Source: Rhodospirillales bacterium
GTDB lineage: Bacteria > Pseudomonadota > Alphaproteobacteria > Rhodospirillales > Casp-alpha2
Assembly: GCA_017644185.1 (NCBI GenBank)
Contig: JAEPMA010000018.1
Location: forward strand, 1-41,705
Reading direction: 5' to 3'
Length of the DNA: 41,705 nt
The translations under genes and the position numbers were made by a program. Numbering within the stretch: the first letter of the stretch is position 1; every line of letters starts with the position of its first letter. Of the stretch, positions 3,518 through 21,788 are shown piece by piece. The notes beneath the pieces are model-generated. The model was not told the DNA's origin. It was given only the letters and a program-made list of their open reading frames with translations, and did not search any database.

Positions 3518-3741
3518 CGGCTTCCAGTTCGTTATTTTCGCTTTTGGACAAACACCCGACGGCGCCCCAACAAGCGACCCACCTCCGTAGCTTTTTACCC
3601 GGTTCAATGCCGGACGGGCAACATGATTGTGACCTTTTCCACATAACTGTGGCATTTTTGTCATCCAACCTTGAAAACAGTATGTTAACGGCTGCTCGGG
3701 AATATGATTTACTCGGAATAACAAGGGGGTTGTCGGAGAAC

Positions 3742-4350: not shown

Positions 4351-4413
4351 CCCAACTGCCCTATTACTGCCTTTTTCAGAATAGATACTCGTTAAATAAT
4401 TAAAGGAGCAGGC

Positions 4414-5013: not shown

Positions 5014-6014
5014 CGCTCTCTGTGATCCGCATCCAAGTTCTTCAATCCGGTGGGATATAGCGTCCAGGCGACAAGCCCCAATACGATCCAGCTAACCTCA
5101 CGAATTCTGCGCACGGCTGCGCAAGCGAGACCAAGGTGAGGCGCTCCTGTAATCGCCGTCGTGACGACGACAAATGCACCTTCCTGCGCCCCTATACCGA
5201 GTGGAATAAAGAAGATCGCGGCCCGAATCATCTGGGCAAGCGCCTCCATCATCCATGCATCCGACCAAGAAATCTCGTGGCCCAGGAAGTGGAACGTCAG
5301 ATAAATCTCAACGACACCCAGTACCCAATTGATGAAAGCCAACAGAAGTGCCGCCGACAATCGGCCGCCGTTTCGGGTATAAAACTCGACGAACCGACGG
5401 TCGAGGTCTTCGACCACCTTGATGGCACCGGCTGCGCGTTCGACCCACGTATGGCCGCTAAATTTGGCCATCAACCAACTCGATACCCGGTAGCGCTGGA
5501 TAGCAAACAACAGCACCGTCCCGATGGTCAGCAATGCCAATCCGACGCTTGACGTCACCGTCAAGCCGCCGCCTATGTCCTCGGACACCGTCATAAACGC
5601 AAACCCGATGATCAGGAACAAGATCAGGGCGATCATATTCACGGTACGCGCCATGACGATCGATGCGGATGCCTCGGTATAGCTCACCCCGTAACGCCGT
5701 TTCAGGATGACCGCCTTGACCGGCTCCCCCGCGAAGCCACCAGCCGGAATGACATTGTTAAAGGCCTCCCCGGCGAGTCGAACGATGAAGGTGCGACGGA
5801 TCCATGCCGGCGTTACCGGCAAAGACGTCAAGATCAGGAGCCAAGAGACCGAGTCGCCCAAAAACGCGAGAAAATAAACGAAGATGACGATCGCAATGCC
5901 CGTCAGGCCGACTTGGGCAACCAATCCGGCGACATCCCCGAGATCGATGTCCTTCGCAATGAAATACAAGAGCACGCAGCCGGCGAGCAAAGAGATGAAT
6001 TTCCAGATATTCAT
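5010..6014 (-). CDS. hpnL: HpnL-like flippase-domain integral membrane protein
   Basis: A 334-residue polytopic membrane protein of the lysylphosphatidylglycerol-synthase-TM/UPF0104 (flippase-like) family. About eight hydrophobic helices are visible, and the typical conserved features are the loop with AGGFAGEPVKAVILKRRYG and the C-terminal FFIPLGIGAQEGAFVV. In hopanoid producers a member of this family, HpnL, accompanies hpnN; here it directly follows hpnN, which is the main reason for the symbol. The ATG at 6014 lies 4 nt after the hpnN stop with a GAGGAAG ribosome site; starts at 6038 or 6035 would overlap hpnN. Lipid translocation is an inference. Confidence 0.7.
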   Translation of the reverse strand: MNIWKFISLLAGCVLLYFIAKDIDLGDVAGLVAQVGLTGIAIVIFVYFLAFLGDSVSWLLILTSLPVTPAWIRRTFIVRLAGEAFNNVIPAGGFAGEPVKAVILKRRYGVSYTEASASIVMARTVNMIALILFLIIGFAFMTVSEDIGGGLTVTSSVGLALLTIGTVLLFAIQRYRVSSWLMAKFSGHTWVERAAGAIKVVEDLDRRFVEFYTRNGGRLSAALLLAFINWVLGVVEIYLTFHFLGHEISWSDAWMMEALAQMIRAAIFFIPLGIGAQEGAFVVVTTAITGAPHLGLACAAVRRIREVSWIVLGLVAWTLYPTGLKNLDADHRER

Positions 6015-6018
6015 CTCT

Positions 6019-8646
6019 TCACGCTTCCTCGCCATCACGGATGAAAAGCTGCATCAGCGCTGGCAAAAGAACCAGAATAGCGATCAAACTCAGCGAGATC
6101 GCAATGCTCAGCAGCAGCCCCATACTGGCCGTTCCCGGGTGGCCTGACAGCATGATCGAACCGAACGAACCAAGCGTCGTCAGCGCGCTCAGCATGACGG
6201 CTCTCGGTGTCGTTGTCGCCATGGCATCTTTGGCCGCTCCGCGCTGACGCATCACGATATGCACACCGAAATCCACGCTAAGCCCGAACAACAGGGGCAG
6301 CACGATAACGTTGGCAAAATTGAACGGAATATCGGCAATCGCCGAGACCGCCAAAGTCCAAAGGGCCGCGATGCAAACCGGTACGAAGATAAGCAGCACA
6401 TCACCGATGCGCCTCAGTACGAGCCAGAGTACGATGCTGACCCCTGCCAGAGAAATCATCAACGCCATCCCGAACGCATCCAACACGGCACGGCCCGCCT
6501 CTACGATGACAACGGGAGCTCCGGTCGCGTTCGGCGCCACAGACTGCACCACCGCCACGTAATCGCGTAGTTTTTCAGGATTCCGAAGATCCTCCTTCGG
6601 CAGGATGTCCAGGCGCACCTGTCCATTGGCGCTTACATAGCGACGAGATAACTCTTCGGGAAGCGAGCCTAAATCGACACGTCCGGCCTCAAGCGCGACT
6701 GCAAGATCATTCAAACGACCAGGCAAATACCTGAACAATGCCTGATTGATCTCTGATGATGTTGTTTCGGCGTCAACCCCGCCCAGGACCGACGCCAGTC
6801 GGCTTGCCGCTTCACCGAGGACGGGGTGACTGGTGATTTGTTGCAGATGAGCCTGCACCGACTTGAACGCGGCGAGCAATTCTTCGTTGCTCAGCGCCAC
6901 CGTCCCCATAGGCGCATAAAACGCGGGTCCCAGAAACAGTGCCATACGGTCAATGGTGGCCAGCTTGATGTCCTGGTCTGCCGGCACAAGGGTGTGCACA
7001 CTGTCGACCCGATCAACGACGGACAGTACCTGCAATTCGGATATCAGTTTCTCCGCGCCCCCCTCATCCTCCACCAACACCTCAGCGGAGTATGGGTGGA
7101 TCGTACCATCCTCCATCAAATCGAACAGCGTCTCTACAGACGGTGCAGTCGGATCCTTCAGGTTCATGGGGTCGAAATCGAACCGTGCACCCGAAGCAAG
7201 CCACCCGGATACGACTGCGCTCAGCATCCCAACGATGACAATGGCGCGCGCCGCACCGCGCCGCTTGCCCCGTGATTGTTTGCCTCCGGCCCGGTCACCG
7301 AGCGCGGGCGGACGCCGGACCAAGAGTTTCAAAAGCGCCGGCAGTACCGTCAGGTTGCAGAACAGGGCCACGAACATGCCCACACCTGCAATCAGTCCCA
7401 GTTCCGCCAGACCAACATAACTCGTCGGAAGGAAAGAAAAGAAAGCGATTGCCGTCGTTATGGCGCAAACGGCGAGCGAACTGCCCACGCTTCGGCCTCC
7501 CTTAGAGAGTGCCTCGCCCCAAATCATAGTGCCGCCTGAATACTCAGACGCCCTTAATGCGAAATGGATACCAAAATCGACACTCAGTCCGACGAACAGA
7601 ACAGCAAAAGCGACCGAAATAAGGTTCAGCGATCCGAGCGCCAAAATCGCGAATGCCGCCGTCCACAAAAGTCCGATGATAAGCGTCAAGAACAATGACA
7701 TCATCACACCCGGGGATCGCAGCCCGATCAGCAACACCCCAATAACAATGGAAGCCGAGATGATCCCGGCCAGTCCCATGCCGACTTCCACGCTCTTGAG
7801 TTCATCACTCTCCAGTGCGGCGGATCCCGTCAGCCTGACCCGATAGCCCTCACCTGTCAGCCCCTGCTTTTCCGCGATGTCATGTATTGCATCACTCGCA
7901 CGGGAGGCGGGGTGCAAAGACCCATAATCGAGATTGGGACTCGTTTGTATCAGACGTCTTGCCGGACCTTCCTTGTCCGACATGCCCAGTATGACCTCAG
8001 ACCACACCAAGGCACTGTTATTGCCATCACGTACCTTTTCCGCGACATCCGCCATTCGAAGAAGGACCGATGCGGCCTCCGCCAGGGTCGCGCTCTCTCC
8101 CGCTTGCGAGAAGAGCGCCAGCATCTCCCCGAGCCCTGCCAGGTTCGGTTGTTGCCATAGCGTGCCAAGGAAGGGCTGTGCCGCGGCGAGCCGTGTCGAC
8201 AAGCTCTCTAGCTCGTCTGTATCCAGATAGAGCATCCCGTGCTTGCGCAGGAACGGGTCGGTTTCGGGCGAAAATACATTCTCGAAGACATCCGGCATGG
8301 TGCGCATTGCATCGACCATACGGCGAACAGCGTCATCTGCGGCATCCGCGTTCGGTGCCTCGACAACGACCAGAAGATTGTCGTCAAGCTGAGGGAACGC
8401 CGCGTCCAACTTGATCGCGTTTTGGCGGAACGCGAGATCGGCCGACAACATATCCTCGGTATCGGTATCAATCCGCAAATGGGTCGCGAGGTAAGTCGCC
8501 GCTAAAACGCTGACCAACAATACCGCAACCACCAATACAGGCGCCCGTCGTTGACATGCATCGACCCAGCGCTCGACAGCGTCGGCGAAAAGTCGGCTTA
8601 TTCCGGTTTCGGCCGCTGGCGGCACCCGGCTCTCCCGCCCGATCAA
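6019..8646 (-). CDS. hpnN: HpnN, hopanoid-associated RND/MMPL transporter
   Basis: An 875-residue RND-superfamily permease with two repeated halves, each a periplasmic domain followed by a membrane bundle. The conserved DFGIHF (first half) and DFGVHI (second half) segments within SVDFGxH motifs are typical of the MMPL/HpnN group. HpnN is known to move hopanoids from the inner to the outer membrane. The first codon at 8646 is TTG with no clear ribosome site; a GTG at 8625 preceded by GGGAG is a good alternative and would shorten the protein by seven residues. It is transcribed with the HpnL-like gene. Confidence 0.9.
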   Translation of the reverse strand: MIGRESRVPPAAETGISRLFADAVERWVDACQRRAPVLVVAVLLVSVLAATYLATHLRIDTDTEDMLSADLAFRQNAIKLDAAFPQLDDNLLVVVEAPNADAADDAVRRMVDAMRTMPDVFENVFSPETDPFLRKHGMLYLDTDELESLSTRLAAAQPFLGTLWQQPNLAGLGEMLALFSQAGESATLAEAASVLLRMADVAEKVRDGNNSALVWSEVILGMSDKEGPARRLIQTSPNLDYGSLHPASRASDAIHDIAEKQGLTGEGYRVRLTGSAALESDELKSVEVGMGLAGIISASIVIGVLLIGLRSPGVMMSLFLTLIIGLLWTAAFAILALGSLNLISVAFAVLFVGLSVDFGIHFALRASEYSGGTMIWGEALSKGGRSVGSSLAVCAITTAIAFFSFLPTSYVGLAELGLIAGVGMFVALFCNLTVLPALLKLLVRRPPALGDRAGGKQSRGKRRGAARAIVIVGMLSAVVSGWLASGARFDFDPMNLKDPTAPSVETLFDLMEDGTIHPYSAEVLVEDEGGAEKLISELQVLSVVDRVDSVHTLVPADQDIKLATIDRMALFLGPAFYAPMGTVALSNEELLAAFKSVQAHLQQITSHPVLGEAASRLASVLGGVDAETTSSEINQALFRYLPGRLNDLAVALEAGRVDLGSLPEELSRRYVSANGQVRLDILPKEDLRNPEKLRDYVAVVQSVAPNATGAPVVIVEAGRAVLDAFGMALMISLAGVSIVLWLVLRRIGDVLLIFVPVCIAALWTLAVSAIADIPFNFANVIVLPLLFGLSVDFGVHIVMRQRGAAKDAMATTTPRAVMLSALTTLGSFGSIMLSGHPGTASMGLLLSIAISLSLIAILVLLPALMQLFIRDGEEA

Positions 8647-8767: not shown

Positions 8768-9388
8768 ATGGCCATGAAAAAGCCCCCCTTCGATCAGCGG
8801 ATTGCCACCGTTTTGGTACGTCCATTGGTGAATACCCCGATCACGCCGAACCATGTATCCTTGTTTACCCTCGTCGTCGCACTTGCCGGGGCGGGCATGC
8901 TGGCGACTGGCGACACGGCCATGGCAACCACGGGCGCCGGACTGTTCGTGTTCGCTCGCTTTCTCGACCATTTTGACGGCGAACTGGCCCGTCAGTCGGG
9001 AAAAACCTCCAAGCTCGGGTACTACCTGGACTACATCGTCGGATCGATCAGTTACGCGGCGCTATTTTTCTGCATGGGCTGGGGCTTCAAGGATAGTGCT
9101 ATCGGATATTGGGCCGTCGTGCTCGGCTGCGGCGGTGCGGCAGCTGCAGTCATCTCCATGTTCACCAATCTCGGTATCGATAAACAAACGGGAGGCGATG
9201 AGACCGGCAGCGCCATTGGTTACCCGGGCTTCGCGGGGTTTGAGCTCGAGGACGGCATATATCTTCTGTGGCCGGTGACTTGGCTCGGTTACCTTTACCC
9301 GTTTTTCATTGCCGCTGGGTTCGGTGCGACAATTTATTGCCTGTACACCTGCGTGATGTTGATCAGGATGCGCGCGCGTCGTCCTTAA
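8768..9388 (+). CDS. CDP-alcohol phosphatidyltransferase family protein (altered active site)
   Basis: A 206-residue membrane enzyme of the CDP-alcohol phosphatidyltransferase family, which swaps CMP of a CDP- (or CMP-) activated donor for an alcohol. The signature D-x2-D-G-x2-A-R-x8-G-x3-D-x3-D is present at D67, D70, G71, A74, R75, G84 and D88, but the last aspartate is glycine (G92). That position is normally catalytic or metal-coordinating, so the protein may be inactive, altered in specificity, or a partner of the paralogue at 9363-9977. ATG 8768 has GAGGAG seven bases upstream; the frame is open to 8714. Several hydrophobic helices follow. Donor and acceptor are not known; context suggests phosphonate headgroups. 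Confidence 0.85.
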   Translation: MAMKKPPFDQRIATVLVRPLVNTPITPNHVSLFTLVVALAGAGMLATGDTAMATTGAGLFVFARFLDHFDGELARQSGKTSKLGYYLDYIVGSISYAALFFCMGWGFKDSAIGYWAVVLGCGGAAAAVISMFTNLGIDKQTGGDETGSAIGYPGFAGFELEDGIYLLWPVTWLGYLYPFFIAAGFGATIYCLYTCVMLIRMRARRP

Positions 9389-9977
9389 GGGCCTTTCTGA
9401 ATAGAAAGATGAAGAGCAGTGCAAAAGCCGGGGCGCCAACCGCTGCAGCGACAAGCAAGCCTTCCGACCACCCCAAAAGGATCGCAATCGGAATTGCCAG
9501 CATCGCATCATCGGGGTCGAAACCGAAGATGCCGCCGATTTCCGCCGCACGTGCGCCTTGAAGGTTTTCGATCCTGATCACCAACAACAAGATCGTCGCC
9601 ACGGCGGCACCGGCCAGCAATCCCATCGGAATAGCCCAAAGTCCGTACCCGCCGAACCTCAACCCAATCCCCAATCCAATGAAGATCAAAGCATTACAGA
9701 ACGCATCCGCAAACAGATCATAGGTGTGCCCACCCGGACTGGTACGCCCGGTCATTCGAGCCAAATCGCCGTCTGCCCGATCCAGCAACATGGAAAGGAT
9801 GAACAGGATCGCGCCATAGTTCGCCCACTCGACACTCCCGTGCGCCACCGACATGGCAGCACTGACGCCGGCAATGATGCGGACCGTGGTCAATTGGTTT
9901 GGCGTCACCGGCGTTTTTGCCAATGGCCGAACGATCGTCACTCGCGCGATCTTGTGAATCCAAGTGTTGTGGGACAT
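9363..9977 (-). CDS. CDP-alcohol phosphatidyltransferase family protein
   Basis: A 204-residue paralogue of the gene it overlaps tail to tail by 26 bp. It has the complete family signature: D66, D69, G70, A73, R74, G83, D87 and D91, so it should be catalytically competent. Both paralogues share the N-terminal RPL..TP.TPN motif that precedes the first membrane helix. It starts 15 nt after the phosphonopyruvate decarboxylase gene and is probably co-transcribed. With a nearby PntC-like cytidylyltransferase, the plausible reaction is transfer of a phosphonoalcohol/aminoethylphosphonate group from its CMP derivative to a lipid alcohol; ordinary phosphatidylglycerophosphate- or phosphatidylinositol-type chemistry cannot be excluded. 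Confidence 0.88.
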   Translation of the reverse strand: MSHNTWIHKIARVTIVRPLAKTPVTPNQLTTVRIIAGVSAAMSVAHGSVEWANYGAILFILSMLLDRADGDLARMTGRTSPGGHTYDLFADAFCNALIFIGLGIGLRFGGYGLWAIPMGLLAGAAVATILLLVIRIENLQGARAAEIGGIFGFDPDDAMLAIPIAILLGWSEGLLVAAAVGAPAFALLFIFLFRKALKDDARAS

Positions 9978-9992
9978 CGCTGGGTTCGCTCT

Positions 9993-11135
9993 CTAGTTCT
10001 TGGCGAGGAACGACTTGAAACGCCGTGCCACCTCAGGTGGCTTCACGGTCGGCCGTCCAAGTTTCTCCAATGATCCCGGCGCGATCTTCATGTGGATCAA
10101 TGTAGGCCCATCTTCATTCAGGGCCTGCGCCAAAGCCTGCTCGAACCCTGGCGTATCATTGACCCGAACACCTCGCTTGTAACCGGCGGCGACAGCACAG
10201 GCGGCGAAGTCGACGCCCGCCGAAACGGTCGGCTGCCCGCCGGTGGAGTCGTATGTTCCGTTGTCCAGCACGAGATGAACGAGGTTCTTCGGTGCGTACG
10301 CGCCGACCGTCGCCAACGTTCCCATCTTCATCATCAGCGCGCCGTCGCCATCGACGACAATGATTGGTTTATCGGTGTTGAGAGCCACACCCAACCCCAT
10401 CCCCGCGGCACATCCCATTGAGCCAACCTGATACAGATGCTGCTCACGGTCTGCGATGGTGAATAACTCACGGCCCGATTTGCCGGTCGTCACGATGACA
10501 CCGGCATTTTCGGGCAACTGACCCAGCATGCTTTCAAGTGTCTCGTAGCGGCTAGGCGGTCGCATATCAGAACGCAGATCAACAATCTCGCCCCCGCCTT
10601 CTGCGACCGGCTGCTCGACATCGCCCAAATCCTGATCGGCAACATCTCCCTTCTGCATGATAAAGGCGACCGGCAGCTGGCTTTCATCCATCTGCGCCAT
10701 GGCGTCATCCAGCATGGGTTTGACCCGGTCGTCTTCAGAAGGAAAAAGGTTATAGGGAATACGCAAAACCTCGAACAAATCCGGCGTAATTTCGCCCATC
10801 AACTCATGCTGCGGTTCATCGCTCAGGCCGGGCCCGGCACGCCACGTACAGATGACAAGCGTCGGAATTTTAAATGGGTAATTGAGCGACGTCAGCGGGT
10901 TGACCGCATTCCCGAACCCGGAATTCTGAAACATGACCGCCGTCTGGCGGCCCGCAAGCCAGGCACCGGCCGCGATGGCGACGGACTCCCCCTCGCTCGC
11001 CGCGGCCACGTAAGACGTGGCCGTGTCGTTCAGAACGCCGTTAATCAGCGGCGTCAGGAAGGAGCACGGCACACCTGTAAAGAAATCAAACCCCTTGAAT
11101 TTGGCATGGCGCAGGAATGTGGCGGCTTCGATCAA
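9993..11135 (-). CDS. Phosphonopyruvate decarboxylase (ThDP-dependent)
   Basis: A 380-residue thiamine-diphosphate enzyme expected to decarboxylate phosphonopyruvate to phosphonoacetaldehyde, the step that pulls PEP mutase forward in phosphonate synthesis. Seen: the N-terminal pyrimidine-binding half with GFDFFTGVPCSFL and AAASEGESVAIAAGAWLAGR, the DEPQHELMG segment, and the ThDP motif GDG at 263-265 ending in LDNGTYDSTGGQPT. The start is placed at a TTG (11135) because GGAGGT lies six bases upstream and the resulting N-terminus matches the family; the frame is open to 11207. Sulfopyruvate decarboxylase is a homologous alternative, but those are usually two subunits (ComD and ComE). PEP mutase is not in the window. 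Confidence 0.85.
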   Translation of the reverse strand: MIEAATFLRHAKFKGFDFFTGVPCSFLTPLINGVLNDTATSYVAAASEGESVAIAAGAWLAGRQTAVMFQNSGFGNAVNPLTSLNYPFKIPTLVICTWRAGPGLSDEPQHELMGEITPDLFEVLRIPYNLFPSEDDRVKPMLDDAMAQMDESQLPVAFIMQKGDVADQDLGDVEQPVAEGGGEIVDLRSDMRPPSRYETLESMLGQLPENAGVIVTTGKSGRELFTIADREQHLYQVGSMGCAAGMGLGVALNTDKPIIVVDGDGALMMKMGTLATVGAYAPKNLVHLVLDNGTYDSTGGQPTVSAGVDFAACAVAAGYKRGVRVNDTPGFEQALAQALNEDGPTLIHMKIAPGSLEKLGRPTVKPPEVARRFKSFLAKN

Positions 11136-11299
11136 TTCATTACCTCCGGCGTTGATGGCTCCAGCACTTCGGCAGATCGTATTTTCTGGCCGAGGGAACG
11201 ATGCCATACAAGGGATTTGTCGTTAATCGACATCAGCAATGCCCGTGACACTGGCCACGCCAAGCGTTATACGGTGGCCGAAATCTGGCCCGGACTGGA

Positions 11300-12061
11300 A
11301 TGACGATGCTACAGACACCTCATCTCAACGACGAAGACATTACCGCTTTCGAGCGTGATGGCTACCTGGTGAAGCGCGGCGGCTTTAATGCCGAGGACAT
11401 GTCCAGTATTTCCGCCTGGACCGATGAGGTGGTCGCGATGCCGGAGGTTTCTGGCCGGCATTGGGTTTATCATGAGAAAAGCCGCAAGGACGGCGGCGAC
11501 CTCGTCAACCGTATTGAGAATATCGCTCCCTTCCACGAGGGCTTCCATCGCCTAACGGATGCGCTCAAGGCGCCCGTCTCACAATTGCTCGGCGAGCCTG
11601 CGGTTCTCTTCAAAGAGAAAATCAATTTCAAGATGCCGGGTGGTGGCGGATTTGCGCCGCACCAGGATAGCCAAGCCGGTTGGGACACGTATGCCGATTT
11701 CTTCATATCCGCACTGGTCAGCATCGACCGTGCAACGCTTCTGAACGGCTGCCTCCAGCTTGTCGCAGGGCATCACAAGTCGGGTCTCGTCAAATCCTGG
11801 GAGCCTCTGAACGACGATGAAATGAAGGGCATGAGCTTCGAGCCGGTGCCGACCGAACCGGGCGACATCGTCTTCTTCGACTGCTATGCGCCGCATGCGT
11901 CAGAGGCAAACATGAGCGATCAGGTCCGCCGTATCTATTACGCGACCTACAACCGGGCTTCCGCAGGCGATCACATGGCGCAGTATTACGCGGACAAACA
12001 TAAGAACTTCCCGCCGGATATCGACCGCGATCCGGACAAGGAATACGTCTTCCGCGTCTAG
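11300..12061 (+). CDS. PhyH-family Fe(II)/2-oxoglutarate dioxygenase
   Basis: A 253-residue non-haem iron dioxygenase of the phytanoyl-CoA hydroxylase family. The iron triad is visible: H121 and D123 (PHQDSQAGW) and H199 (APHASEAN), with R211 (QVRRIYY) a likely 2-oxoglutarate ligand. The HQDxQAGW signature and the C-terminal AGDHMAQYYADK region resemble dioxygenases such as PhnY that hydroxylate 2-aminoethylphosphonate at C1, from memory and not from a search. It is divergent from phosphonopyruvate decarboxylase across 164 bp. Starts at 11300 or 11306 are both possible. The substrate may be an aminoethylphosphonate or its lipid; hydroxylation of another alkyl substrate is also possible. Confidence 0.78.
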   Translation: MTMLQTPHLNDEDITAFERDGYLVKRGGFNAEDMSSISAWTDEVVAMPEVSGRHWVYHEKSRKDGGDLVNRIENIAPFHEGFHRLTDALKAPVSQLLGEPAVLFKEKINFKMPGGGGFAPHQDSQAGWDTYADFFISALVSIDRATLLNGCLQLVAGHHKSGLVKSWEPLNDDEMKGMSFEPVPTEPGDIVFFDCYAPHASEANMSDQVRRIYYATYNRASAGDHMAQYYADKHKNFPPDIDRDPDKEYVFRV

Positions 12062-12071
12062 CGTCGGTTAA

Positions 12072-12725
12072 TCAAGGAAGGCCGTTCCGCCCGTGCGCCA
12101 GAAACGCCGGCCGATCGCTCAAAAGCTCATAGTATTCTGACACCGCTTCGAACGTTGGTTTTTCCATACCATCCAGCATGAACCAGCGGTTCACCACCAA
12201 GCCGACCGGAATGTCCGCGACGGTAAACTTACGGCCGGCGACATAAGGGCCGCCATCCCTCAGATGCGCATCAAGCAAACCAACCTCATGGATCAGGTCT
12301 TTTCGACCCTGCGCCACGAACCACTCGTTGTTCCATGGCGCTTCCTGAAGCTGCCCGCCCAGAAACGCGCCGCGGAGAGCGTGCGTAACATCATACGCAA
12401 CCCAGTCCATCCATTGTTCGACCTTTTGCCGATGGACAAGTTCTGACGGGTATAATTCCTCGTTGCCTGCTTTCGATGCCAGATACCGGACGATGGCGTT
12501 GGACTCTCGCATAACGTGACCGTCATCGATCACCACGGGAACCTGTGCCGCAGGATTCAATTCCAGAAATTCAGGGCTGTTGCAGGCTCGAAAGCCGCGG
12601 CCGTAGTCTTCACGCTCGTAGGCGACACCTAGCTCGTCGCACGCCCATAAGACCTTGCGAACGTTGAATGAATTCTTTCTTCCGAGAATACGTAATGTCG
12701 ATGTGGTCGTGCCGTCGGCTGGCAT
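12072..12725 (-). CDS. Glutathione S-transferase family protein
   Basis: A 217-residue protein with an N-terminal thioredoxin-like GST domain (residues 10-90: NSFNVRKVLW, AQVPVVIDDG, RESNAIVRYLA) and an all-helical C-terminal domain with FTVADIPVG. The PxVxD and ESNAI elements bind the glutathione gamma-glutamyl part in the family, and Ser19 or Asn18 in the first loop is the candidate activating residue. ATG 12725 has GGGAAGAG upstream. It sits between the PhyH dioxygenase and the cytidylyltransferase, facing the former; no specific role can be assigned. Confidence 0.88.
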   Translation of the reverse strand: MPADGTTTSTLRILGRKNSFNVRKVLWACDELGVAYEREDYGRGFRACNSPEFLELNPAAQVPVVIDDGHVMRESNAIVRYLASKAGNEELYPSELVHRQKVEQWMDWVAYDVTHALRGAFLGGQLQEAPWNNEWFVAQGRKDLIHEVGLLDAHLRDGGPYVAGRKFTVADIPVGLVVNRWFMLDGMEKPTFEAVSEYYELLSDRPAFLAHGRNGLP

Positions 12726-12818
12726 GGTCTCTTCCCTGTCCGTTTATTATGGATGTTGCCAGGATCATCCGGGATAAACATGCGGAAGACAAACGCCCAT
12801 GCGGACATATCGTCGTGA

Positions 12819-13562
12819 TTAGGTTTTTAGCTTCGGCAAGATGACCTCGCGGGCGCGCTCCAGGTCTTCGGGAAAGTCGATTTCGATCCAGTTCAAATCC
12901 GAGATATCGACAATGCCGAAAACACCGTCCGGGCCACCTATGACAACGTCTCGGATTGCCTCCTCATACGTCGACATAAGCTGCCCACCCTCGATGTAAT
13001 TCTCCAAAGAGGCCGCGATTAGCGGCCCCGTATCTGCAGACACTTTCATAAAGCCCGGCCACTCACCCATAGCGTCAAACTGGCCGACGATACGCTTACC
13101 GAAATCAACGACATTTCCATCGCGCAAACAGATCCGGACCGGATCATCGCCCTCATCCAGATCATCATCATAGACGAAGGCGCTGTCTTGAGAGCTATCG
13201 ATCAGGCGCTTGATGATGTCGGTGTCATAGAGGATGTCCGCATCCATAAAGAGCACGTCCTGACCCCGTCGATAGGTCTCGCGGGCGTACCACATCGATA
13301 TGATGCTCCCACCACGGTACATCGGGTTCTCGATCACCTCGAGAAAGCCAGGCGGCGAGCACTGCTCCGCCTCCGCAACGACGAGATCTTTTCGGTATCC
13401 AACGACAAGTGTCAGCTTTTCGACGCCAAAAACCTGCAGATATTCAAAATGGCGAGCCAACAAAGTTCTACCATCGAACTCGATCAGGCTTTTCGGAGGT
13501 TGCGAGCGGCTATCGCCGAACAAGCGACTGCCGACACCGGCAGCTAGAATAATGGCGTGCAT
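12819..13562 (-). CDS. PntC/LicC-like nucleotidyltransferase (probable CMP-phosphonate or phosphocholine cytidylyltransferase)
   Basis: A 247-residue NTP-transferase. The nucleotide-binding loop LAAGVGSRL is at residues 6-14, the conserved lysine in PPKSL at about 24, the metal-binding aspartates in MDADI at 107 and 109, and the C-terminal motif WIEIDFPEDLERA. This pattern matches the phosphocholine (LicC) and 2-aminoethylphosphonate (PntC) cytidylyltransferases, which activate a phospho- or phosphono-alcohol as its CMP derivative. With a phosphonopyruvate decarboxylase and two CDP-alcohol phosphatidyltransferases nearby, the phosphonate reading is favoured. It lies 51 bp downstream of hpnA in the same direction, so it may be co-transcribed with a hopanoid gene. 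Confidence 0.8.
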   Translation of the reverse strand: MHAIILAAGVGSRLFGDSRSQPPKSLIEFDGRTLLARHFEYLQVFGVEKLTLVVGYRKDLVVAEAEQCSPPGFLEVIENPMYRGGSIISMWYARETYRRGQDVLFMDADILYDTDIIKRLIDSSQDSAFVYDDDLDEGDDPVRICLRDGNVVDFGKRIVGQFDAMGEWPGFMKVSADTGPLIAASLENYIEGGQLMSTYEEAIRDVVIGGPDGVFGIVDISDLNWIEIDFPEDLERAREVILPKLKT

Positions 13563-13613
13563 GTGCGGAATTCCCTGGTTGCGGAGCGTATCTTTATCGA
13601 TTGCCGGGCCAAG

Positions 13614-14627
13614 TCAAGGACGGCTCAGATATCCATTTTCTCTGAACCATATTACGGCATCGCGCAGCGCGTCCTCGCCCGGCCGGTGCCGATACCCGAG
13701 TTCAGATTCGGCTCGCCCGCTTGAGAAGAACATTTTCTTTTTGGACATCTTGAGGCCGTCAACCGTGGCGAAAGGCTCGCCATTGCCCGTCAGGGAACAC
13801 CACATCTCCGCCGCCCATGCGATTGGGTAAATCGGCCCGCGCGGAATCTGCATGATCGGCGGTTTCACCCCTGCGATGCCGGCAACAGTGTGCAGTATAT
13901 CCCGAAGCGTCATGTCGTCGCCGCCAAGAATATACCGTCGTCCGATCTTTCCCTTTTCGTATGCAAGCAAGTGTCCCGCCGCGACGTCATCGACATGGGC
14001 AATATTCAACCCGGTATCCACGTATGCCGGCATTCGACCAGTGGCCGCCTCCACGACCAGGCGCCCGGTGGGTGTCGGTTTAATGTCTCGCGGACCGATC
14101 GGCGTGGAGGGATTGACGATCACGCAGTCGAAGCCGGTTTCGCGAATCACCTCATTTACAGCTTCCTCCGCCCGATATTTGGACTGCTTGTAAACACCGA
14201 TCATGTCCGCGAAACCGACCGGAGTCCGCTCATCCGATGGCGTGCCTGACGGATCGATACCAAGCACCGCGACACTCGACGTATAAACAGCCCGCTTGAC
14301 CCCCGACTGATGTGCTGCCTGCAGAATAGCGCGCGACCCATCGACGTTTACGCTGAACATTGCCTCAGGATCCCGGGTCCAAAGCCGATAGTCGGCGGCG
14401 ACATGAAACAGTCCTTCGCACCCGTCCAGGGCGGATCTCAGCGTATCCGGGCGCATCAGGTCACCTTCGCAGACAGTAACCTCTAGACCGGCCAAGTTCC
14501 GTCGGTCGCTGCCGGGGCGCGCGAGCACCCGGACGTCGGCGCCCCGCTCGACAAGTGCGCGAACGACCGCCGATCCAACAAATCCGGTCGCCCCCGTCAC
14601 GAGGTATGGTCCAGCGTTCAACTCCAC
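13614..14627 (-). CDS. hpnA: HpnA, hopanoid-associated NAD(P)-dependent epimerase/reductase
   Basis: A 337-residue extended short-chain dehydrogenase of the dihydroflavonol-4-reductase-like HpnA family. The Rossmann motif VTGATGFVGSAVV is near the N-terminus, the catalytic Y-x3-K is in VYKQSKYRAEE, and PSTPIGPRDIKPTPTG and the C-terminal DALRDAVIWFRENGYL segment are family features. A GTG at 14627 with GAAGGGAG six bases upstream is the likely start; a TTG at 14654 is the alternative. The sugar- or side-chain-modifying substrate of HpnA is not established. It is divergent from ispH and upstream of the cytidylyltransferase. Confidence 0.9.
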   Translation of the reverse strand: MELNAGPYLVTGATGFVGSAVVRALVERGADVRVLARPGSDRRNLAGLEVTVCEGDLMRPDTLRSALDGCEGLFHVAADYRLWTRDPEAMFSVNVDGSRAILQAAHQSGVKRAVYTSSVAVLGIDPSGTPSDERTPVGFADMIGVYKQSKYRAEEAVNEVIRETGFDCVIVNPSTPIGPRDIKPTPTGRLVVEAATGRMPAYVDTGLNIAHVDDVAAGHLLAYEKGKIGRRYILGGDDMTLRDILHTVAGIAGVKPPIMQIPRGPIYPIAWAAEMWCSLTGNGEPFATVDGLKMSKKKMFFSSGRAESELGYRHRPGEDALRDAVIWFRENGYLSRP

Positions 14628-14809
14628 ATTGCACTCCCTTCGGTTAAAGGCCAAACAAGCACTGATTTTAGGAGTTTTCCATGGAAAATCGGCGCCAAAG
14701 ACGTTAAACAGCCATTGATAACGGCTATTCGCATGCCACCTCTAAGGTAATGCGGTCGAACACGTTTTCGGCTGCCGTAAAGACTTTATTCCCGGGATTT
14801 GTTGATATT

Positions 14810-15772
14810 ATGAGCGAACCTATCGAAATCATTCTTGCCAATCCTCGCGGATTTTGCGCAGGCGTTGAGCGTGCCATCGAAATTGTGGAACGCGCTTTGA
14901 CAAAATACGGTCCGCCAATCTACGTGCGCCACGAGATCGTTCACAACAAACATGTGGTCAATTCGTTGCGTGCCAAGGGTGCGATCTTCGTCGATGAGAT
15001 CGATGAAGTACCCGACGGCGCGGTGACGATCTTTAGTGCGCATGGGGTCGCTGAAAAGGTCGAGGGTGCGGCTCGGGTTCGGAATCTCCCGGTTATCGAT
15101 GCCACCTGCCCGCTGGTCTCGAAAGTCCACAAGGAGGGTCAGAATCATGCCACGAAGGGCCGTCAGGTCATCTTGATCGGGCACCGTGGTCACCCGGAAG
15201 TCGAAGGCACGCAGGGCCGGATCCCAGGTGGCGTTCTGTTGGTGAGCGACCCGAGCGATGTCGACGAGATCGAGGTCGAGGACCCGGACAAGCTTGCGTA
15301 TGTGACGCAAACGACCTTGTCGGTCGATGAGACGCGTTCGACGATCGATGCACTCAAAAAGCGCTTCCCGAAGATTGTCGGACCGGACGTAAAAGATATC
15401 TGCTACGCAACGCAGAACCGGCAGCAAGCGGTACGGGAACTCTCTGAAGCCGTCGATTTGATGCTGGTCGTCGGAGCCAAGAATAGCTCGAACTCCAATC
15501 GTCTTGCTGAACTTGGTGGCGAGAACGGAACGCCGTCTTATCTGATCGACGATGCAACGATGATAAAAGATGAGTGGCTGGAAGGCGTCAAAAAGGTCGG
15601 ATTGACCGCAGGTGCCTCGGCACCCGAAGAGCTTGTCCAAGGCGTAATTTCTCGGATCAACGAGCTCAGAGGCGCCACGGTGAGAAACCACACCGGCGCG
15701 GAAGAAAACGTGGTCTTCAAGCTACCTCGTGAACTGCTCAATGTCGCACCCGCCGAAGCAGCAGGAGACTGA
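14810..15772 (+). CDS. ispH: 4-hydroxy-3-methylbut-2-enyl diphosphate reductase IspH
   Basis: A 320-residue [4Fe-4S] enzyme that makes IPP and DMAPP in the last step of the MEP pathway. The three cluster cysteines are in [24 protein letters not shown] and [11 protein letters not shown]. Active-site elements [24 protein letters not shown] and KNSSNSNRL are intact. ATG 14810 gives the normal family N-terminus; ATG 14750 would add twenty residues and has only a weak AAGG. One base separates its stop from hpnH, so isoprenoid supply and hopanoid elongation are translationally linked. Confidence 0.96.
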
Positions 15773-15773
15773 T

Positions 15774-16928
15774 ATGGCTGTCCCCCTGATCCAGCAAATT
15801 CGCGTCGGCGCCTATATCATGAAGCAGCGCATCAAGGGCGTTGATAAGTATCCGTTGGTATTGATGCTGGAACCCCTTTTCCGTTGCAATCTCGCGTGCC
15901 CCGGGTGTGGCAAGATCGACTACGAGGACAACATCCTCAACAGGCGCTTGAGTTTTGAGGAATGCATGGAAGCCGTCGACGATTGTGGCGCGCCGATCAT
16001 TTCCATCCCAGGCGGCGAACCGTTGATCCATAAAGAAATCAAACAGATCGTCGAGGGGATCGTCGCGCGCAAGAAGTTCGTTTACCTGTGCACCAACGCG
16101 CTTTTGCTGGAAAAGCGTTTGGACGACTTTAAGCCCTCGCCCTACCTGACATTCTCCGTTCACCTGGACGGCCTTGAAGAGCATCACGACCACGCTGTTG
16201 ATCAGAAGGGGACCTTCAAGCGCGCTGTTGCCGCCATCAAGGCTGCCAAGGCCCGTGGCTTCCGCGTTAACGTCAACTGCACCCTGTTCGATCAGATGTC
16301 AGCCGAGGAATGTGCCGAGTTCTTTGATTTCTGCACCAACGAACTTGAGGTCGAAGGTATTACGATTTCGCCGGGTTATGCGTACGAACGTGCCCCTGAC
16401 CAGGAACATTTCCTGAAACGCGGCAAGACCAAAGAGCTGTTCCGCAATATCTTCCGCCTCAAGGGAGACAAGAAATGGCAGTTCAGCCAGTCTACCCTGT
16501 TCATGGATTTCCTGGCAGGGAATCAGCAGTACGAATGCACACCGTGGGGCAACCCAACGCGAAACATCTTCGGCTGGCAAAAACCCTGTTATCTCTTGAG
16601 CGAAGGTTACGCAAAAACCTTCAAGGAGCTCATGGACGAGACACCCTGGGAGCAGTACGGCACCGGCAACTATGAAAAATGCGCGAACTGCATGGTGCAT
16701 TGCGGGTACGAGCCGACAGCCGTGGCAGATACCGTCAAACACCCGTTAAAGGCACTACGTGTGTTTCTCAAGGGTATCGATACCGAGAAGCCAATGGCAC
16801 CGGAAATCCCGCTTGAGAACCAGCGTCCAGCCGAGTTCGTGTTCGAAAATCTGGTCGAGACGATGACCCAGAAACTAGAGCGCGAAAAAGCCGAGGCCCG
16901 GGCCAAGGACGCGGGCCGCGCCGCTTAA
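15774..16928 (+). CDS. hpnH: HpnH, radical SAM adenosyl-hopane synthase
   Basis: A 384-residue radical SAM enzyme that joins the 5'-deoxyadenosyl group to diploptene to give adenosylhopane. The cluster motif CxxxCxxC is at C38, C42 and C45 (FRCNLACPGC), followed by the SAM-binding ISIPGGEPL and a C-terminal cysteine-rich part (CTPW, KPCYLL, EKCANCMVHCGYEPT) typical of HpnH. ATG 15774 is preceded by GGAG within the last codons of ispH; the frame is open to 15729 but that start lies inside ispH. Its 3' end overlaps the convergent hpnG by 54 bp. Confidence 0.96.
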   Translation: MAVPLIQQIRVGAYIMKQRIKGVDKYPLVLMLEPLFRCNLACPGCGKIDYEDNILNRRLSFEECMEAVDDCGAPIISIPGGEPLIHKEIKQIVEGIVARKKFVYLCTNALLLEKRLDDFKPSPYLTFSVHLDGLEEHHDHAVDQKGTFKRAVAAIKAAKARGFRVNVNCTLFDQMSAEECAEFFDFCTNELEVEGITISPGYAYERAPDQEHFLKRGKTKELFRNIFRLKGDKKWQFSQSTLFMDFLAGNQQYECTPWGNPTRNIFGWQKPCYLLSEGYAKTFKELMDETPWEQYGTGNYEKCANCMVHCGYEPTAVADTVKHPLKALRVFLKGIDTEKPMAPEIPLENQRPAEFVFENLVETMTQKLEREKAEARAKDAGRAA

Positions 16929-17552
16929 GCTTTCCATCGCTCTTTTGTTGTAGCTGTTGAGGTCGAGCAAACGCCCGATCGTCCAAGGCTGCACACATAC
17001 CCCGGCCATGACAGGCAACAAGCTGATGCTGCCGTCCGGACGTACCGCATCCAAGGCATATTCCGGGATATCGAACTGCACCGGATCCACGACCGCGCGC
17101 AAGACGGCAAAAGGTATACCGGCATCTTGGGCTAATTTCGCGACGTAATGACTTTCCATATCTATAGCGGCGATTTGCTGCTCCGCTAAACGCGCTTTGT
17201 CTACAGCGTTCGCCACATAATCGACCCCGGTTATCGTCACCTTGTCAGCGCCGGTGATGGATGCAAGCCTGCTTGTCCAACCTAAGTCGGCTTGATAACG
17301 GTTGCCCTCGTCATCCGTGACAAACTCGCCGACCAAGACGTCGCCAGGTTGGTGTGTCGCTGAAACGGCGCCGGCACTTCCGAAGCTCAGAATGCCGCCG
17401 ACCCCAAGTCCGATCAGCTCTTCGGTCCCGGCACGGGCTCGCGCTGGACGCGCTCCTGTTAAACGAATGAGCGGCGCCGCCGCATCTCCCATAATGGGCG
17501 CGAGTGCGGCTTCTTCGGATTTAACGCCGGTGATGATGCCGATGCGCGGCAC
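16875..17552 (-). CDS. hpnG: HpnG, adenosylhopane nucleosidase
   Basis: A 225-residue nucleoside-phosphorylase-like protein; HpnG removes adenine from adenosylhopane, leading to ribosylhopane and bacteriohopanetetrol. Features are the N-terminal RIGIITGVKSEE, the purine-phosphorylase SFGSAGAV loop and the catalytic-region DMESHYVAKLA. A GTG at 17552, five bases after the shc stop, is chosen because it begins the family's conserved strand; the frame is open upstream inside shc. No strong ribosome site is seen, which suggests translational coupling to shc. Its last 54 bp overlap the hpnH coding sequence on the other strand. Confidence 0.9.
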   Translation of the reverse strand: MPRIGIITGVKSEEAALAPIMGDAAAPLIRLTGARPARARAGTEELIGLGVGGILSFGSAGAVSATHQPGDVLVGEFVTDDEGNRYQADLGWTSRLASITGADKVTITGVDYVANAVDKARLAEQQIAAIDMESHYVAKLAQDAGIPFAVLRAVVDPVQFDIPEYALDAVRPDGSISLLPVMAGVCVQPWTIGRLLDLNSYNKRAMESLSGAARVLGPGLGFFAL

Positions 17553-17557
17553 CGGGC

Positions 17558-19510
17558 TTAAATGCCGTATTTCGGTGTGCGCTCGTTGGCGCGGGAAAGG
17601 TTCACGTAGCGCGCCAAAGTCCACATCGGGAAATAGGCACTGTAGCCGTGATACCGCAGATAGAACACACGCGGAAAGCCGACCGCGTTGAAGTATTCTT
17701 CATCCCATTTACCGCCGTCGCGCGGCGCGTTCATCAGATAATCGACGCCGCGTTTGACCGAGTTGGATTTGATCTCGCCAGCCGCGATCAGGCCTAATAC
17801 GGCCCAAGACGTTTGCGACGGGGTCGAGGTTTTGACCTCGTCACGCCGATGCTGCCAATAACTAGCGCAATCCTCCCCCCAGCCACCATCAGCACATTGC
17901 CGGGATTTCAGCCATTCGACTGCCTTACGAATGTAGGGGGCGTTCATGTCTTCCCCGACGGCGTTGAGCGCACATAATACTGACCAGGTTCCATAAACGT
18001 AATTGTTGCCCCAGCGGCCGAACCACGAGCCGTCGGGCTCCTGCTCATTCTTCAGATAGTCGACACCACGACGGACGCTGTCGCGTTCCATCCCATACCC
18101 AAGCTGCGCAAGGAACGATACGCATCGTGCACTGACATCAGCCGTGGGCGGATCCAGCAAGGCACCATGATCCGCGAAGGGAATATGCTGAAGAGCATAG
18201 TATTCGTTGTCGATATCGAAGGCGCCCCAGCCACCGTTTTTGGATTGCATTCCCTCAATCCAGATCTCCGCCCTTCGAATAGCTTCCGAATATCGCTCCG
18301 GATCGGCACGATGCAGCAACATGCCGACAACGGCCGTGTCGTCCACGTCCGGGTAGTAGTCATTGTTGTACTGGAATGCCCAGCCGCCCGGCTCCAAATC
18401 CGGTCGGTTGACAGCCCAATCACCTTTGACGTCGAGAATCTGCCGTTCCGCCAGCCAATCCGTAGCTGCGGCCAGCGCTTTCTCGCTCATGTCGAGACCG
18501 GCTTCCATCAGCGCATGGCCACCGAGGGACGTGTCCCAGATCGGCGACAGGCAGGGCTGGCAATACCCCTCGTCGTTTTCAAACGTTAGAAGCTTGTCGA
18601 TGGATTCCCGCGCGATCACGTAATCCGGATGATCTCGCGAATACCCGAGTGCATCGAAAGCCATGACCGTGTTGGCCATTGCCGGGAAGATCGCGCCCAG
18701 ACCGTCCTCGCCGTTCAGCCGCGGTGCAATGAAATCGAGACACCTGCGGATGGCTTTTTTCTCGATACCCGATGGGAACAACGGCTCAACTAGCTTGGCG
18801 ATCCGGTCAATCCCAAGGCACAGGGTCCCGACCCAGTGGCCGGTCGGGTTGACCATGTATTCTTCCTCGTCGTTGGCCGGTCTTACGAAAAGCTCGGGTA
18901 TTCCCGTCTTTCTGGGGTTTTGAGCCCTCGGTTTGAGCACCGCCAAGATCAGGAGCGGCACCATTACGGTACGCGACCAGTATGAAATCTTATCCACGTG
19001 GAATGGCGACCATCGCGGCAACAGCAGCGCCTCGGCCCGCATCACCGGGACAGCACGCCACGGCACCTGCTCAAACAGGGCAAGCGCGATACGAGTAAAT
19101 ACATTTGCCTTCGCGGCCCCGCCATGCGCCAGGATCGCGTCTCGTGCCGCCTTCATATGCGGTGCATCCGGATCATCACCGACCAGTTTCAGGGCGTAAT
19201 AAGCCTTCACCGACGCGCTGATGTTAAAGTCGCCGTCGTGATACAGCGGCCAACCACCGTGTTTTTCCTCCTGAATACGGCGCAGATAGACGGCAAGCTT
19301 CTGCTCGATCTCGTCATTGGGTTCGCCGAGATAATGATTGAGCAGAATATATTCGGCCGGAATTGTTGCATCCGCCTCGAGTTCAAAAGCCCAATGACCG
19401 TCCTCGTGCTGCTCCTGCAGGTACCATTCTCGCGACATCGAAACGACCTGCTCCACCTCCGAAAGCGAGTCATTTCTACCGGTCGCTGCCTGAGCGCTGA
19501 ATTCAACCAA
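17558..19510 (-). CDS. shc: Squalene-hopene cyclase
   Basis: A 650-residue (alpha/alpha)6-barrel cyclase that converts squalene to hopene/hopanol at the inner membrane. The catalytic acid motif DVDD is at 388-391, the QW repeats are recognisable (DGHWAFE, GGWPLY, GYCQPCLSPIWDT, GGWGAFD, DGSWFGRWG, GGWGEDC, GKWDEEYFNAVGFP), and the C-terminal FYLRYHGYSAYFPMWTLARY is typical. Length is normal for the family. The first codon is TTG at 19510 with AGGAA upstream. It is the sixth gene of the hpnM-to-hpnG operon. Also called hpnF. Confidence 0.97.
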   Translation of the reverse strand: MVEFSAQAATGRNDSLSEVEQVVSMSREWYLQEQHEDGHWAFELEADATIPAEYILLNHYLGEPNDEIEQKLAVYLRRIQEEKHGGWPLYHDGDFNISASVKAYYALKLVGDDPDAPHMKAARDAILAHGGAAKANVFTRIALALFEQVPWRAVPVMRAEALLLPRWSPFHVDKISYWSRTVMVPLLILAVLKPRAQNPRKTGIPELFVRPANDEEEYMVNPTGHWVGTLCLGIDRIAKLVEPLFPSGIEKKAIRRCLDFIAPRLNGEDGLGAIFPAMANTVMAFDALGYSRDHPDYVIARESIDKLLTFENDEGYCQPCLSPIWDTSLGGHALMEAGLDMSEKALAAATDWLAERQILDVKGDWAVNRPDLEPGGWAFQYNNDYYPDVDDTAVVGMLLHRADPERYSEAIRRAEIWIEGMQSKNGGWGAFDIDNEYYALQHIPFADHGALLDPPTADVSARCVSFLAQLGYGMERDSVRRGVDYLKNEQEPDGSWFGRWGNNYVYGTWSVLCALNAVGEDMNAPYIRKAVEWLKSRQCADGGWGEDCASYWQHRRDEVKTSTPSQTSWAVLGLIAAGEIKSNSVKRGVDYLMNAPRDGGKWDEEYFNAVGFPRVFYLRYHGYSAYFPMWTLARYVNLSRANERTPKYGI

Positions 19511-19607
19511 TGAGCGGGTTCCTTATGAGCGGTCGGCTCCCGGGGAGCGTAACGCGATAAACGTCTGATGAAGTCGATCTAGACCGTAAACTTTTGTCAA
19601 AATTTCG

Positions 19608-21733: not shown

Positions 21734-21788
21734 GGCGGCATGGATACACTACCGCCTTCGGCACGTCATCTTTTAGCTGGCGTCAAGC

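Follow-up and report, generated by a model that had tools for sequence, protein, structure and literature searches.

Phosphonate synthesis and activation genes embedded in the hopanoid locus of a Rhodospirillales bacterium suggest an undescribed membrane lipid, possibly a phosphono-hopanoid

Hopanoids are the bacterial counterparts of cholesterol, acting as sterol surrogates and widely used as bacterial molecular fossils. The question raised by the locus described here is why genes for the synthesis and activation of a phosphonate are found in the midst of the genes that build and move these lipids. The window, i.e. the whole stretch of 41,705 nucleotides that was analyzed (C9:1-41705), comes from the 4.16-Mb, 99.9% complete genome of a Rhodospirillales bacterium, and carries, between hpnN and hpnA, genes for a phosphonopyruvate decarboxylase (ppd), a cytidylyltransferase (CYT), a PhyH-type dioxygenase and two members of the CDP-alcohol phosphotransferase (CDP-AP) family, cdpA and cdpB. 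Comparison with related genomes suggests that genes making and activating a carbon-phosphorus compound are built into the hopanoid cluster of many bacteria, pointing to an undescribed membrane lipid, possibly a phosphono-hopanoid. The preferred explanation, in which the window carries a variant of a conserved hopanoid-phosphonate locus and the product is most likely a phosphono-hopanoid, is given a probability of roughly 0.5. Gene identities, conservation, co-occurrence and fold matches were computed directly, with domain and family calls based on Pfam and NCBIfam profiles scored against their curated cut-offs. The module and its borders are as follows:

6019..8646, minus strand: hpnN, RND-type hopanoid transporter, left border of the module (TIGR03480, 882 bits, cut-off 751.85)
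8768..9388, plus strand (longest open reading frame, ORF, from 8714): cdpA, CDP-AP homologue (PF01066, 44.9 bits, cut-off 22)
9363..9977, minus strand: cdpB, CDP-AP with a complete signature, proposed phosphonate-to-lipid transferase (PF01066, 53.1 bits, cut-off 22)
9993..11207, minus strand: ppd, phosphonopyruvate decarboxylase (TIGR03297, 413.3 bits, cut-off 312.5)
11300..12061, plus strand: phyH, PhnY-like Fe(II)/2-oxoglutarate dioxygenase homologue, proposed phosphonate hydroxylase (PF05721, 97.7 bits)
12072..12725, minus strand: glutathione-S-transferase-like gene between phyH and CYT (PF02798)
12819..13562, minus strand: CYT, PntC-like cytidylyltransferase, proposed maker of CMP-aminoethylphosphonate (NTP_transf_3, 53.3 bits, cut-off 27)
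13614..14654, minus strand: hpnA, hopanoid-associated epimerase-like protein, right border of the module (TIGR03466, 492 bits, cut-off 367.65)

An earlier note on this DNA had named the decarboxylase, a PntC/LicC-like cytidylyltransferase, the PhyH protein and two CDP-APs as a phosphonolipid-headgroup module, and all of these genes were recovered in the order and on the strands that it gave, including CYT 51 nt downstream of hpnA in the same direction; its list omitted the glutathione-S-transferase-like gene, which also lies inside the module. The cdpB gene follows ppd after 15 nt on the same, minus, strand. The presence of shc, hpnC-D-E, hpnG and hpnH together in the window places it among the hopanoid biosynthesis loci. 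Neither a phosphoenolpyruvate (PEP) mutase (pepM) nor a 2-aminoethylphosphonate (AEP) transaminase (aepT) is encoded within the window.

The neighbourhood of CYT was compared in two samples of loci, with genes called by an anchor/GC3 (third-codon-position GC content) rule. The first included 40 of the 48 genomes of the class carrying a CYT orthologue, besides the window (the lower-scoring carriers G130, G155, G232, G253, G289, G334 and G354 lay outside this set), and the second the best 80 of 565 confirmed stretches from named genomes; the samples are not independent, since they have at least 17 loci in common, and every fetched locus was retained in the counts. Named carriers were mainly Rhodospirillales metagenome-assembled genomes (MAGs), but Pseudoroseomonas coralli and Roseicella aerolata were also among them, as were MAGs labelled Gammaproteobacteria and Nitrospinae. 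P. coralli M0104 (L175) has CYT, pepM, ppd, aepT, a CDP-AP and hpnN, R. aerolata GB24 (L181) has CYT, pepM, ppd, aepT and a CDP-AP, and the locus of a MAG named Caenispirillum bisanense (L124) is almost complete. An hpn gene was found at 31 of the 40 and 64 of the 80 loci, a phosphonate gene (pepM, ppd or aepT) at 20 and 39, and both at 16 and 32, respectively. In the named sample, hpnA lay within 1.5 kb of CYT at 52 loci, while hpnA, CYT, pepM, ppd, hpnN and a CDP-AP occurred all together at 13. The most tightly packed co-directional pairs (less than 150 bp between matched segments, both samples) were hpnA-CYT (40), CYT-cdpA (15), cdpA-hpnA (13) and hpnN-CYT (12), "cdpA" here meaning merely the nearer of the two CDP-AP queries from the window. 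A frequent order (L139, L127, L185) was hpnC-hpnB-hpnD-shc-hpnG, hpnH, ispH, hpnA-CYT, phyH, followed by pepM, ppd, aepT, cdpB, cdpA, hpnN, a further CDP-AP and hpnL; compared with it, the window lacks pepM, aepT and the additional CDP-AP and has gained hpnE and the glutathione-S-transferase-like gene. Other arrangements were found as well: a MAG labelled Nitrospinae (L180) has hpnN-CYT-CDP-AP-hpnA with approximately 15, 36 and 3 bp between matched segments, and a 17-kb stretch from a MAG labelled Proteobacteria (L184) has hpnG-hpnN-CDP-AP-hpnA, CYT-pepM-ppd-aepT and hpnH-hpnB, in an order unlike that of the window, with an aepT product of 31% identity and a PepM that, in a tree of 45 PepM proteins, clusters with the L171 and L188 proteins, both labelled Gammaproteobacteria. 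With hpn genes near CYT at 31 of 40 and 64 of 80 loci, the arrangement is not due to chance. A phosphonate headgroup module and its coupling to hopanoid genes are supported, and the possibility that the neighbourhood would be conserved in no relative, which had been named as grounds for abandoning the idea, clearly fails.

The search for CYT in 385 genomes of the class gave matches at E <= 1e-10 in 75. Orthologues were delimited at E <= 1.1e-32, a threshold set post hoc where the listed values jump (to 2.2e-25 for the genome that follows), resulting in 48 carriers (CYT+) under 23 family labels. The squalene-hopene cyclase gene shc was present in 47 of these 48 genomes vs. 106 of the 385 overall, the only CYT+ genome without a match (G307) having HpnH and HpnA, and in 11 of the 27 genomes with only weaker CYT homologues. 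PEP mutase exceeded its cut-off in 44 genomes, 40 of them with CYT and 41 with shc; only 4 had it without CYT. For comparison, 32 of the 59 CYT- shc+ genomes were chosen, nearly one per family and at least 90% complete, leaving 27 outside. The cdpB profile (alignment A2, 12 rows) matched 46 of the 48 CYT+ vs. 2 of the 32 chosen CYT- genomes, and at E <= 1e-23 44 vs. 0, a comparison that favours CYT+ genomes by the construction of the profile from CYT-linked loci. HpnA was over its cut-off in 44 of 48 CYT+ vs. 19 of 32 CYT- genomes (p = 0.0008), its presence in the latter leading to rejection of HpnA as a gene of phosphonate loci only.

The proposed activating enzyme, CYT, was modeled with AlphaFold at a predicted local distance difference test (pLDDT) score of 94. 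When the model was compared with 350,542 PDB chains using Foldseek, ranks 1 to 7 were all PntC, the CMP-AEP synthase (6pd2/6pd1; query template-modelling (TM) scores 0.80-0.84), followed by inositol-1-phosphate cytidylyltransferase (IPCT) and LicC (0.66-0.74); sugar nucleotidyltransferases reached up to 0.76 with weaker E-values. These ranks support the earlier assignment of a PntC-type cytidylyltransferase. The GxGxR motif was present in 26 of 26 rows of the CYT alignment (A1), with an invariant PK lysine (K24). In Tde-PntC, E104 and E196 contact the AEP amine; CYT D107 aligns with the first (Asp, as in LicC), and E200, nearly invariant among CYTs, with the second. As judged from the alignment, CYT would therefore have one LicC-like and one PntC-like position at the AEP contacts.

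The remaining steps towards AEP are encoded elsewhere in this genome. The window ppd is its only phosphonopyruvate decarboxylase gene over the cut-off, as found by a genome scan, and the only PEP mutase over the cut-off is on contig C27 (TIGR02320, 396 bits, cut-off 319.55), as a fusion to an NTP-transferase domain; such fusions are common among PEP mutases. The only AEP transaminase over the cut-off is PhnW on C29 (L107, G000:C29:44000-62000), in a catabolic setting that includes genes for phosphonoacetate hydrolase (PhnA), phosphonoacetaldehyde dehydrogenase and an AEP ABC transporter. With its genes at three places, AEP synthesis would in principle be possible, and the organism may both produce and scavenge phosphonates. 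In many Rhodospirillales relatives pepM lies inside the same hopanoid locus, with ppd directly behind it, and in several the transaminase is there too. The C27 PepM has the EDK.....N stretch (a condition for inclusion in both the tree and the fusion count), and EDK.....NS was found in the PepM of relatives at 15 of 17 loci, the exceptions being L087, which is truncated at the end of its contig, and L098, which lacks the motif. In the 45-protein tree, printed without support values, the C27 protein falls inside the hopanoid-locus PepMs, beside L118, L128 and L133, and its gene is therefore read as having moved out of an ancestral locus. Among fusions of more than 500 residues with the EDK motif, GxGxR was kept in the NTP-transferase domain of 0 of 45 (L014:11491-13152 and 44 relatives, some loci counted twice), and [S/T]RG, mostly as AA[S/T]RG, takes its place in 41 of the 43 sequences matching the pattern. 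An altered activity of the fused domain is possible, and its role as the sole activating enzyme is doubted; since the motif is lost in the fusions and kept in CYT, the latter is taken as the likely activating enzyme.

As for the dioxygenase, the best NCBIfam match of the window PhyH was methylphosphonate hydroxylase (NF052437), at 168.9 bits vs. a cut-off of 500, which leaves it outside the PhnY family proper; it shares this match with PhnY-type 2-oxoglutarate phosphonate hydroxylases, and differs from them in its low score and in a biosynthetic rather than catabolic context. phyH lay near CYT at 38 of the 80 named loci, on the opposite strand in 37 of them. The glutathione-S-transferase-like gene was not conserved (matched at 2 of 80 named loci, 35% and 25% identity). 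In its place, between CYT and phyH, 8 of 19 loci (L115, L121, L123, L128, L140, L153, L158, L172) encode an EamA-family membrane protein (about 280 residues) that might serve as an exporter or flippase; the sole NCBIfam match of the L128 protein was TIGR03340, "phosphonate utilization associated putative membrane protein" (142.7 bits, cut-off 288).

The two CDP-APs differ in the family signature, D1xxD2GxxAR...GxxxD3xxxD4. In cdpB it is complete and invariant over the 12 rows of A2, and the predicted fold is closest to AF2299 and also near phosphatidylinositol-phosphate (PIP) synthases. The Kennedy-type CDP-choline/ethanolamine phosphotransferases (CEPT1, CPT1), which transfer a CMP-activated headgroup to a lipid hydroxyl, belong to the same family and are weak profile relatives of cdpB, which is about half their size and has a fold nearer to AF2299 and the PIP synthases. 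In cdpA, Gly replaces the fourth signature Asp (DHFDGELAR...G...D...G). The same loss of D4 with D3 present was found in 37 of 103 CDP-AP ORFs of related loci (those common to both samples counted twice), while in the 15 rows of the cdpA-type alignment (A3) the signature was otherwise invariant at its seven remaining residues, as was an E-D pair close to the C-terminus. D4 is the presumed catalytic base, and a PIP synthase with Asn in its place has almost no activity, as stated in the accessible part of PMC4634129. Without it, cdpA is filed as a CDP-AP homologue and not as a transferase; its type is perhaps a partner subunit or pseudo-enzyme, or an enzyme using another base or another chemistry.

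Which lipid would receive the headgroup is addressed most directly by a second set of cdpB-like genes, which seven CYT+ genomes carry no more than 4 kb from hpnJ (hpnJ loci L191 to L197). In G210, the genes are ordered hpnL-hpnI-hpnJ-hpnK-CDP-AP with gaps of 90, 15, 44 and -4 bp, i.e. the CDP-AP gene comes last (L191:9674-10279) and overlaps hpnK by 4 bp, and HpnI, HpnJ, HpnK and HpnL each exceed the respective NCBIfam cut-off. Judged by homology, this order recurs in G300 and G378; G087, G200 and G370 have hpnI-hpnJ-hpnN-hpnL-CDP-AP, and G147 has hpnJ, a CDP-AP, hpnL, aepT and a partial ppd on one contig. This linkage was found in 7 of the 13 CYT+ genomes with HpnJ (in one of the 13, G300, the match consists of two sub-cut-off pieces with one stop), whereas 0 of the 7 CYT- genomes with HpnJ had a CDP-AP of this cdpB-like family (p = 0.04). 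HpnI, HpnJ and HpnK form the bacteriohopanetetrol cyclitol ether pathway, a decoration of the hopanoid side chain; its published description names no CDP-AP in the accessible text, and we know of no role for one there. The window's own genome gave no HpnJ match. Because of their position near hpnJ and their absence from the CYT- genomes with HpnJ, these paralogues are the best evidence for action on hopanoid side chains, and the acceptor is more likely such a side chain than diacylglycerol. The bolder proposal of the earlier note, a phosphonate on a hopanoid polyol, is thus strengthened by shc in nearly all carriers and by CDP-APs near hpnJ, once within an hpnL-I-J-K run, while the product and the acceptor are what we infer from these patterns.

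Besides the bias of the cdpB profile, several observations weigh against a phosphono-hopanoid. No hpn gene was found in the fetched stretch at 9 of the 40 and 16 of the 80 loci, some of the stretches being short. Of the CYT+ genomes, 8 of 48 are without a PEP mutase over the cut-off: in G007 and G374 there are pieces cut by contig ends and in G306 a sub-cut-off match, and in the other five there was no match at E <= 1e-70, at completeness values of 98% (G378), 95% (G217), 92% (G307), 80% (G228) and 77% (G011). Weaker CYT homologues occur in 7 of the 32 CYT- genomes, and the Fisher p-values of the co-occurrence tests (2.6e-17 to 1.2e-41) ignore shared ancestry. HpnH, present in 80 of 80 genomes, was uninformative as a discriminator. 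HpnJ was not enriched (13 of 48 CYT+ vs. 7 of 32 CYT-, p = 0.79); the same counts leave unsupported the idea that the headgroup replaces the cyclitol ether, which predicts depletion of HpnJ in CYT+ genomes. In sequence searches, the first phmmer match of CYT in the PDB was HddC (1.1e-7, residues 3-129 only), with PntC third over the full length (2.5e-6, residues 2-244), and its best NCBIfam matches, Sden_1164 and a bifunctional inositol-1-phosphate cytidylyltransferase, were both far under their cut-offs. The cdpB model has six long helices (manual count on the DSSP line), and six-helix CDP-APs are set apart from lipid-acceptor enzymes, suggested to have three to four more, in the accessible part of PMC4634129. 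In the window's genome, the PEP mutase gene lies in a polysaccharide-like cluster and the transaminase gene in the catabolic phnWAY/AEP-transporter cluster. Finally, a survey of 52 Alphaproteobacteria reported 63 hopanoid-polyol structures, and its main text, in the version consulted, names no phosphorus-bearing hopanoid ("phosph" occurs four times, in a phosphorylase, the methylerythritol phosphate (MEP) pathway and two references); the surveyed strains may or may not carry the locus (PMC12583986).

These points bear differently on four other explanations. In the first, the acceptor would be diacylglycerol or another common lipid, and the locus would be shared since both outer-membrane lipids use HpnN, HpnL and Mla-type carriers. 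Such chemistry is carried out by the eukaryotic choline/ethanolamine phosphotransferases, which work with CDP-headgroups and are the weak profile relatives of cdpB mentioned above; the CYT loci without a nearby hpn gene and the occurrence of more than one CDP-AP match in many CYT+ genomes would fit as well. On its own, however, this explanation accounts neither for shc in 47 of 48 carriers, nor for the rarity of the cdpB-type CDP-AP in the chosen CYT- genomes, nor for a CDP-AP paralogue ending an hpnL-I-J-K run, and it is considered unlikely.

In the second, CYT and cdpB would decorate a hopanoid with something other than a phosphonate (phosphoethanolamine, inositol phosphate or a sugar phosphate), the phosphonate genes being frequent but separate neighbours. 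Consistent with this, a cdpB-profile match is kept in all eight CYT+ genomes lacking a PEP mutase over the cut-off, inositol-phosphate cytidylyltransferases come close behind PntC in fold with sugar nucleotidyltransferases in the same range, neither NCBIfam nor phmmer favours PntC, and HpnA, annotated as a sugar epimerase, is more frequent in CYT+ genomes. Yet CYT and PEP mutase occur together in ten times as many genomes (40) as PEP mutase alone (4), PntC ranks first in fold and E200, aligned with an AEP-contacting Glu of PntC, is nearly invariant, and a PhnY-like PhyH accompanies CYT at almost half of the named loci, so that a non-phosphonate headgroup appears improbable.

The third would send the phosphonate to an exopolysaccharide or lipopolysaccharide, with an incidental hopanoid neighbourhood. 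In its favour, the C27 PEP mutase gene stands beside asparagine-synthase-like, APS-kinase-like, ABC-transporter and nucleotidyltransferase genes, as in a polysaccharide cluster. Nevertheless, the hpn company is retained across many families, even in other orders (L184, L180), the CDP-AP partner is all but restricted to CYT carriers, and the PIP synthases in the literature consulted make membrane lipids, though some CDP-APs yield soluble products; a polysaccharide acceptor is considered very improbable. The fourth, which takes Ppd for a sulfopyruvate decarboxylase belonging with the sulfolactate-like genes at 25-33 kb (sulfolactate dehydrogenase-like, 196 bits vs. a cut-off of 500, galactarate dehydratase-like and sulfite reductase-like, about 15 kb away) and unrelated to phosphonates, can be dismissed, as Ppd, at 413 bits, is over the phosphonopyruvate decarboxylase cut-off, both sulfopyruvate decarboxylase models score below theirs, and ppd directly follows pepM in relatives.

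Outside the module, the window holds the rest of the hopanoid locus and genes of lipid trafficking, the latter often retained in related loci:

2600..5013, strands not given: mlaA-like gene, mlaC-like gene and hpnM, lipid trafficking (PF04333, PF05494)
4414-5013, plus strand: hpnM (HpnM, 160.9 bits, cut-off 160.1)
5010..6038, minus strand: hpnL-like flippase-domain membrane protein, overlapping hpnN (TIGR03476, 165.6 bits, below the cut-off of 195.65; LPG_synthase_TM)
14750..24463, strands not given: ispH, hpnH, hpnG, shc, hpnE, hpnD, hpnB, hpnC and an HpnM/MlaC-like protein, the remaining hopanoid locus (NCBIfam)

IspH, HpnH, SHC, HpnE, HpnD, HpnB and HpnC were all over their NCBIfam cut-offs; HpnG was the best match for its protein, yet at 154.8 bits vs. 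a cut-off of 187.1, and the HpnM-like protein of this stretch scored 108.3 vs. 160.1. Further out, the GroES match at 383-886 begins at ORF residue 64, so that either the start codon is called too far upstream or the protein is extended at its N-terminus. Positions 24639-32921 hold Fe-ADH, Ldh_2 (best match sulfolactate dehydrogenase, at the 196 bits given above), hydroxyacid dehydrogenase, galactarate-dehydratase-like and sulfite-reductase-like genes, which may together form a degradation cluster of the sulfolactate type, and a minus-strand ORF of 2544 codons (34023-41657) lies beside a protein-kinase-domain gene (33014-33955).

Returning to the phosphono-hopanoid, we infer a pathway in its every reaction, hydroxylation, product, transport step and acceptor as follows. 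PEP would be converted to phosphonopyruvate by the PEP mutase (on C27 here), phosphonopyruvate to phosphonoacetaldehyde by the window Ppd, and phosphonoacetaldehyde to AEP by a transaminase, the sole candidate over the cut-off being PhnW on C29. The phosphonate may be hydroxylated by the PhnY-like dioxygenase. CYT would then use CTP to form a CMP-phosphonate, from which cdpB, perhaps with cdpA as a partner, would move the phosphonate to a membrane-lipid hydroxyl; a bacteriohopanepolyol side chain is the most likely acceptor, and the resulting phosphono-hopanoid would be carried to the outer membrane by HpnN, HpnL and Mla/HpnM-type proteins. That some phosphonate-bearing envelope lipid is made is regarded as probable, and a hopanoid acceptor as an even bet. 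The complete proposal falls a little short of that and is tentative: a class of phosphono-hopanoids with AEP or hydroxy-AEP on bacteriohopanepolyols, made by a CYT/CDP-AP pair in hpn loci that is nearly confined to hopanoid producers in the sampled class, with a second CDP-AP on the HpnI/J/K branch in some lineages and a signature-defective paralogue as partner or as an enzyme using another base.

Two described systems come close. The PntC pathway (Rice et al. 2019) resembles this locus in that its PEP mutase is fused to an NTP-transferase domain, AEP is synthesized, and a LicC-like cytidylyltransferase yields CMP-AEP; its clusters, as far as described in the accessible text, carry LicD-like or glycosyltransferase genes, whereas the locus in the window has a CDP-AP partner and hopanoid genes, and the word "hopanoid" is absent from that paper (PMC6697681). 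In Roseomonas, a linkage between hopene cyclase genes and PEP mutase was reported, "suggesting it is part of a hybrid cluster", with a guessed terpene-phosphonate product; PEP mutase, decarboxylase and aminotransferase physically linked to hopene genes are common to both cases. Unlike the present analysis, the accessible part of that report deals with one bacterial family in a few sentences, with no co-occurrence test and no mechanism, and mentions no cytidylyltransferase, CDP-AP, PhyH or link to hpnI-J-K (PMC8776678). The earlier note, which knew of no described system of this composition, was thus not quite right as regards the PEP mutase-hopene cyclase linkage; for the CYT/CDP-AP pair in hopanoid loci, no paper was found among the matches listed from the hopanoid and phosphonate literature (most subscription journals lying outside the search). 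In sum, the locus is real and conserved and has only been sketched in print; its chemistry is plausible and its product a proposal.

If the proposal is true, a class of bacterial membrane lipids has been overlooked, and the orphan hpn genes would gain a context, the functions of hpnA, hpnB and hpnL not being established according to the accessible text of PMC12583986. The CDP-alcohol phosphotransferase family would gain a candidate triterpenoid acceptor. Reduced marine phosphorus may in that case also have a membrane-lipid source, as Rhodospirillales MAGs are numerous among the named carriers and several of these have isolate names that look marine.

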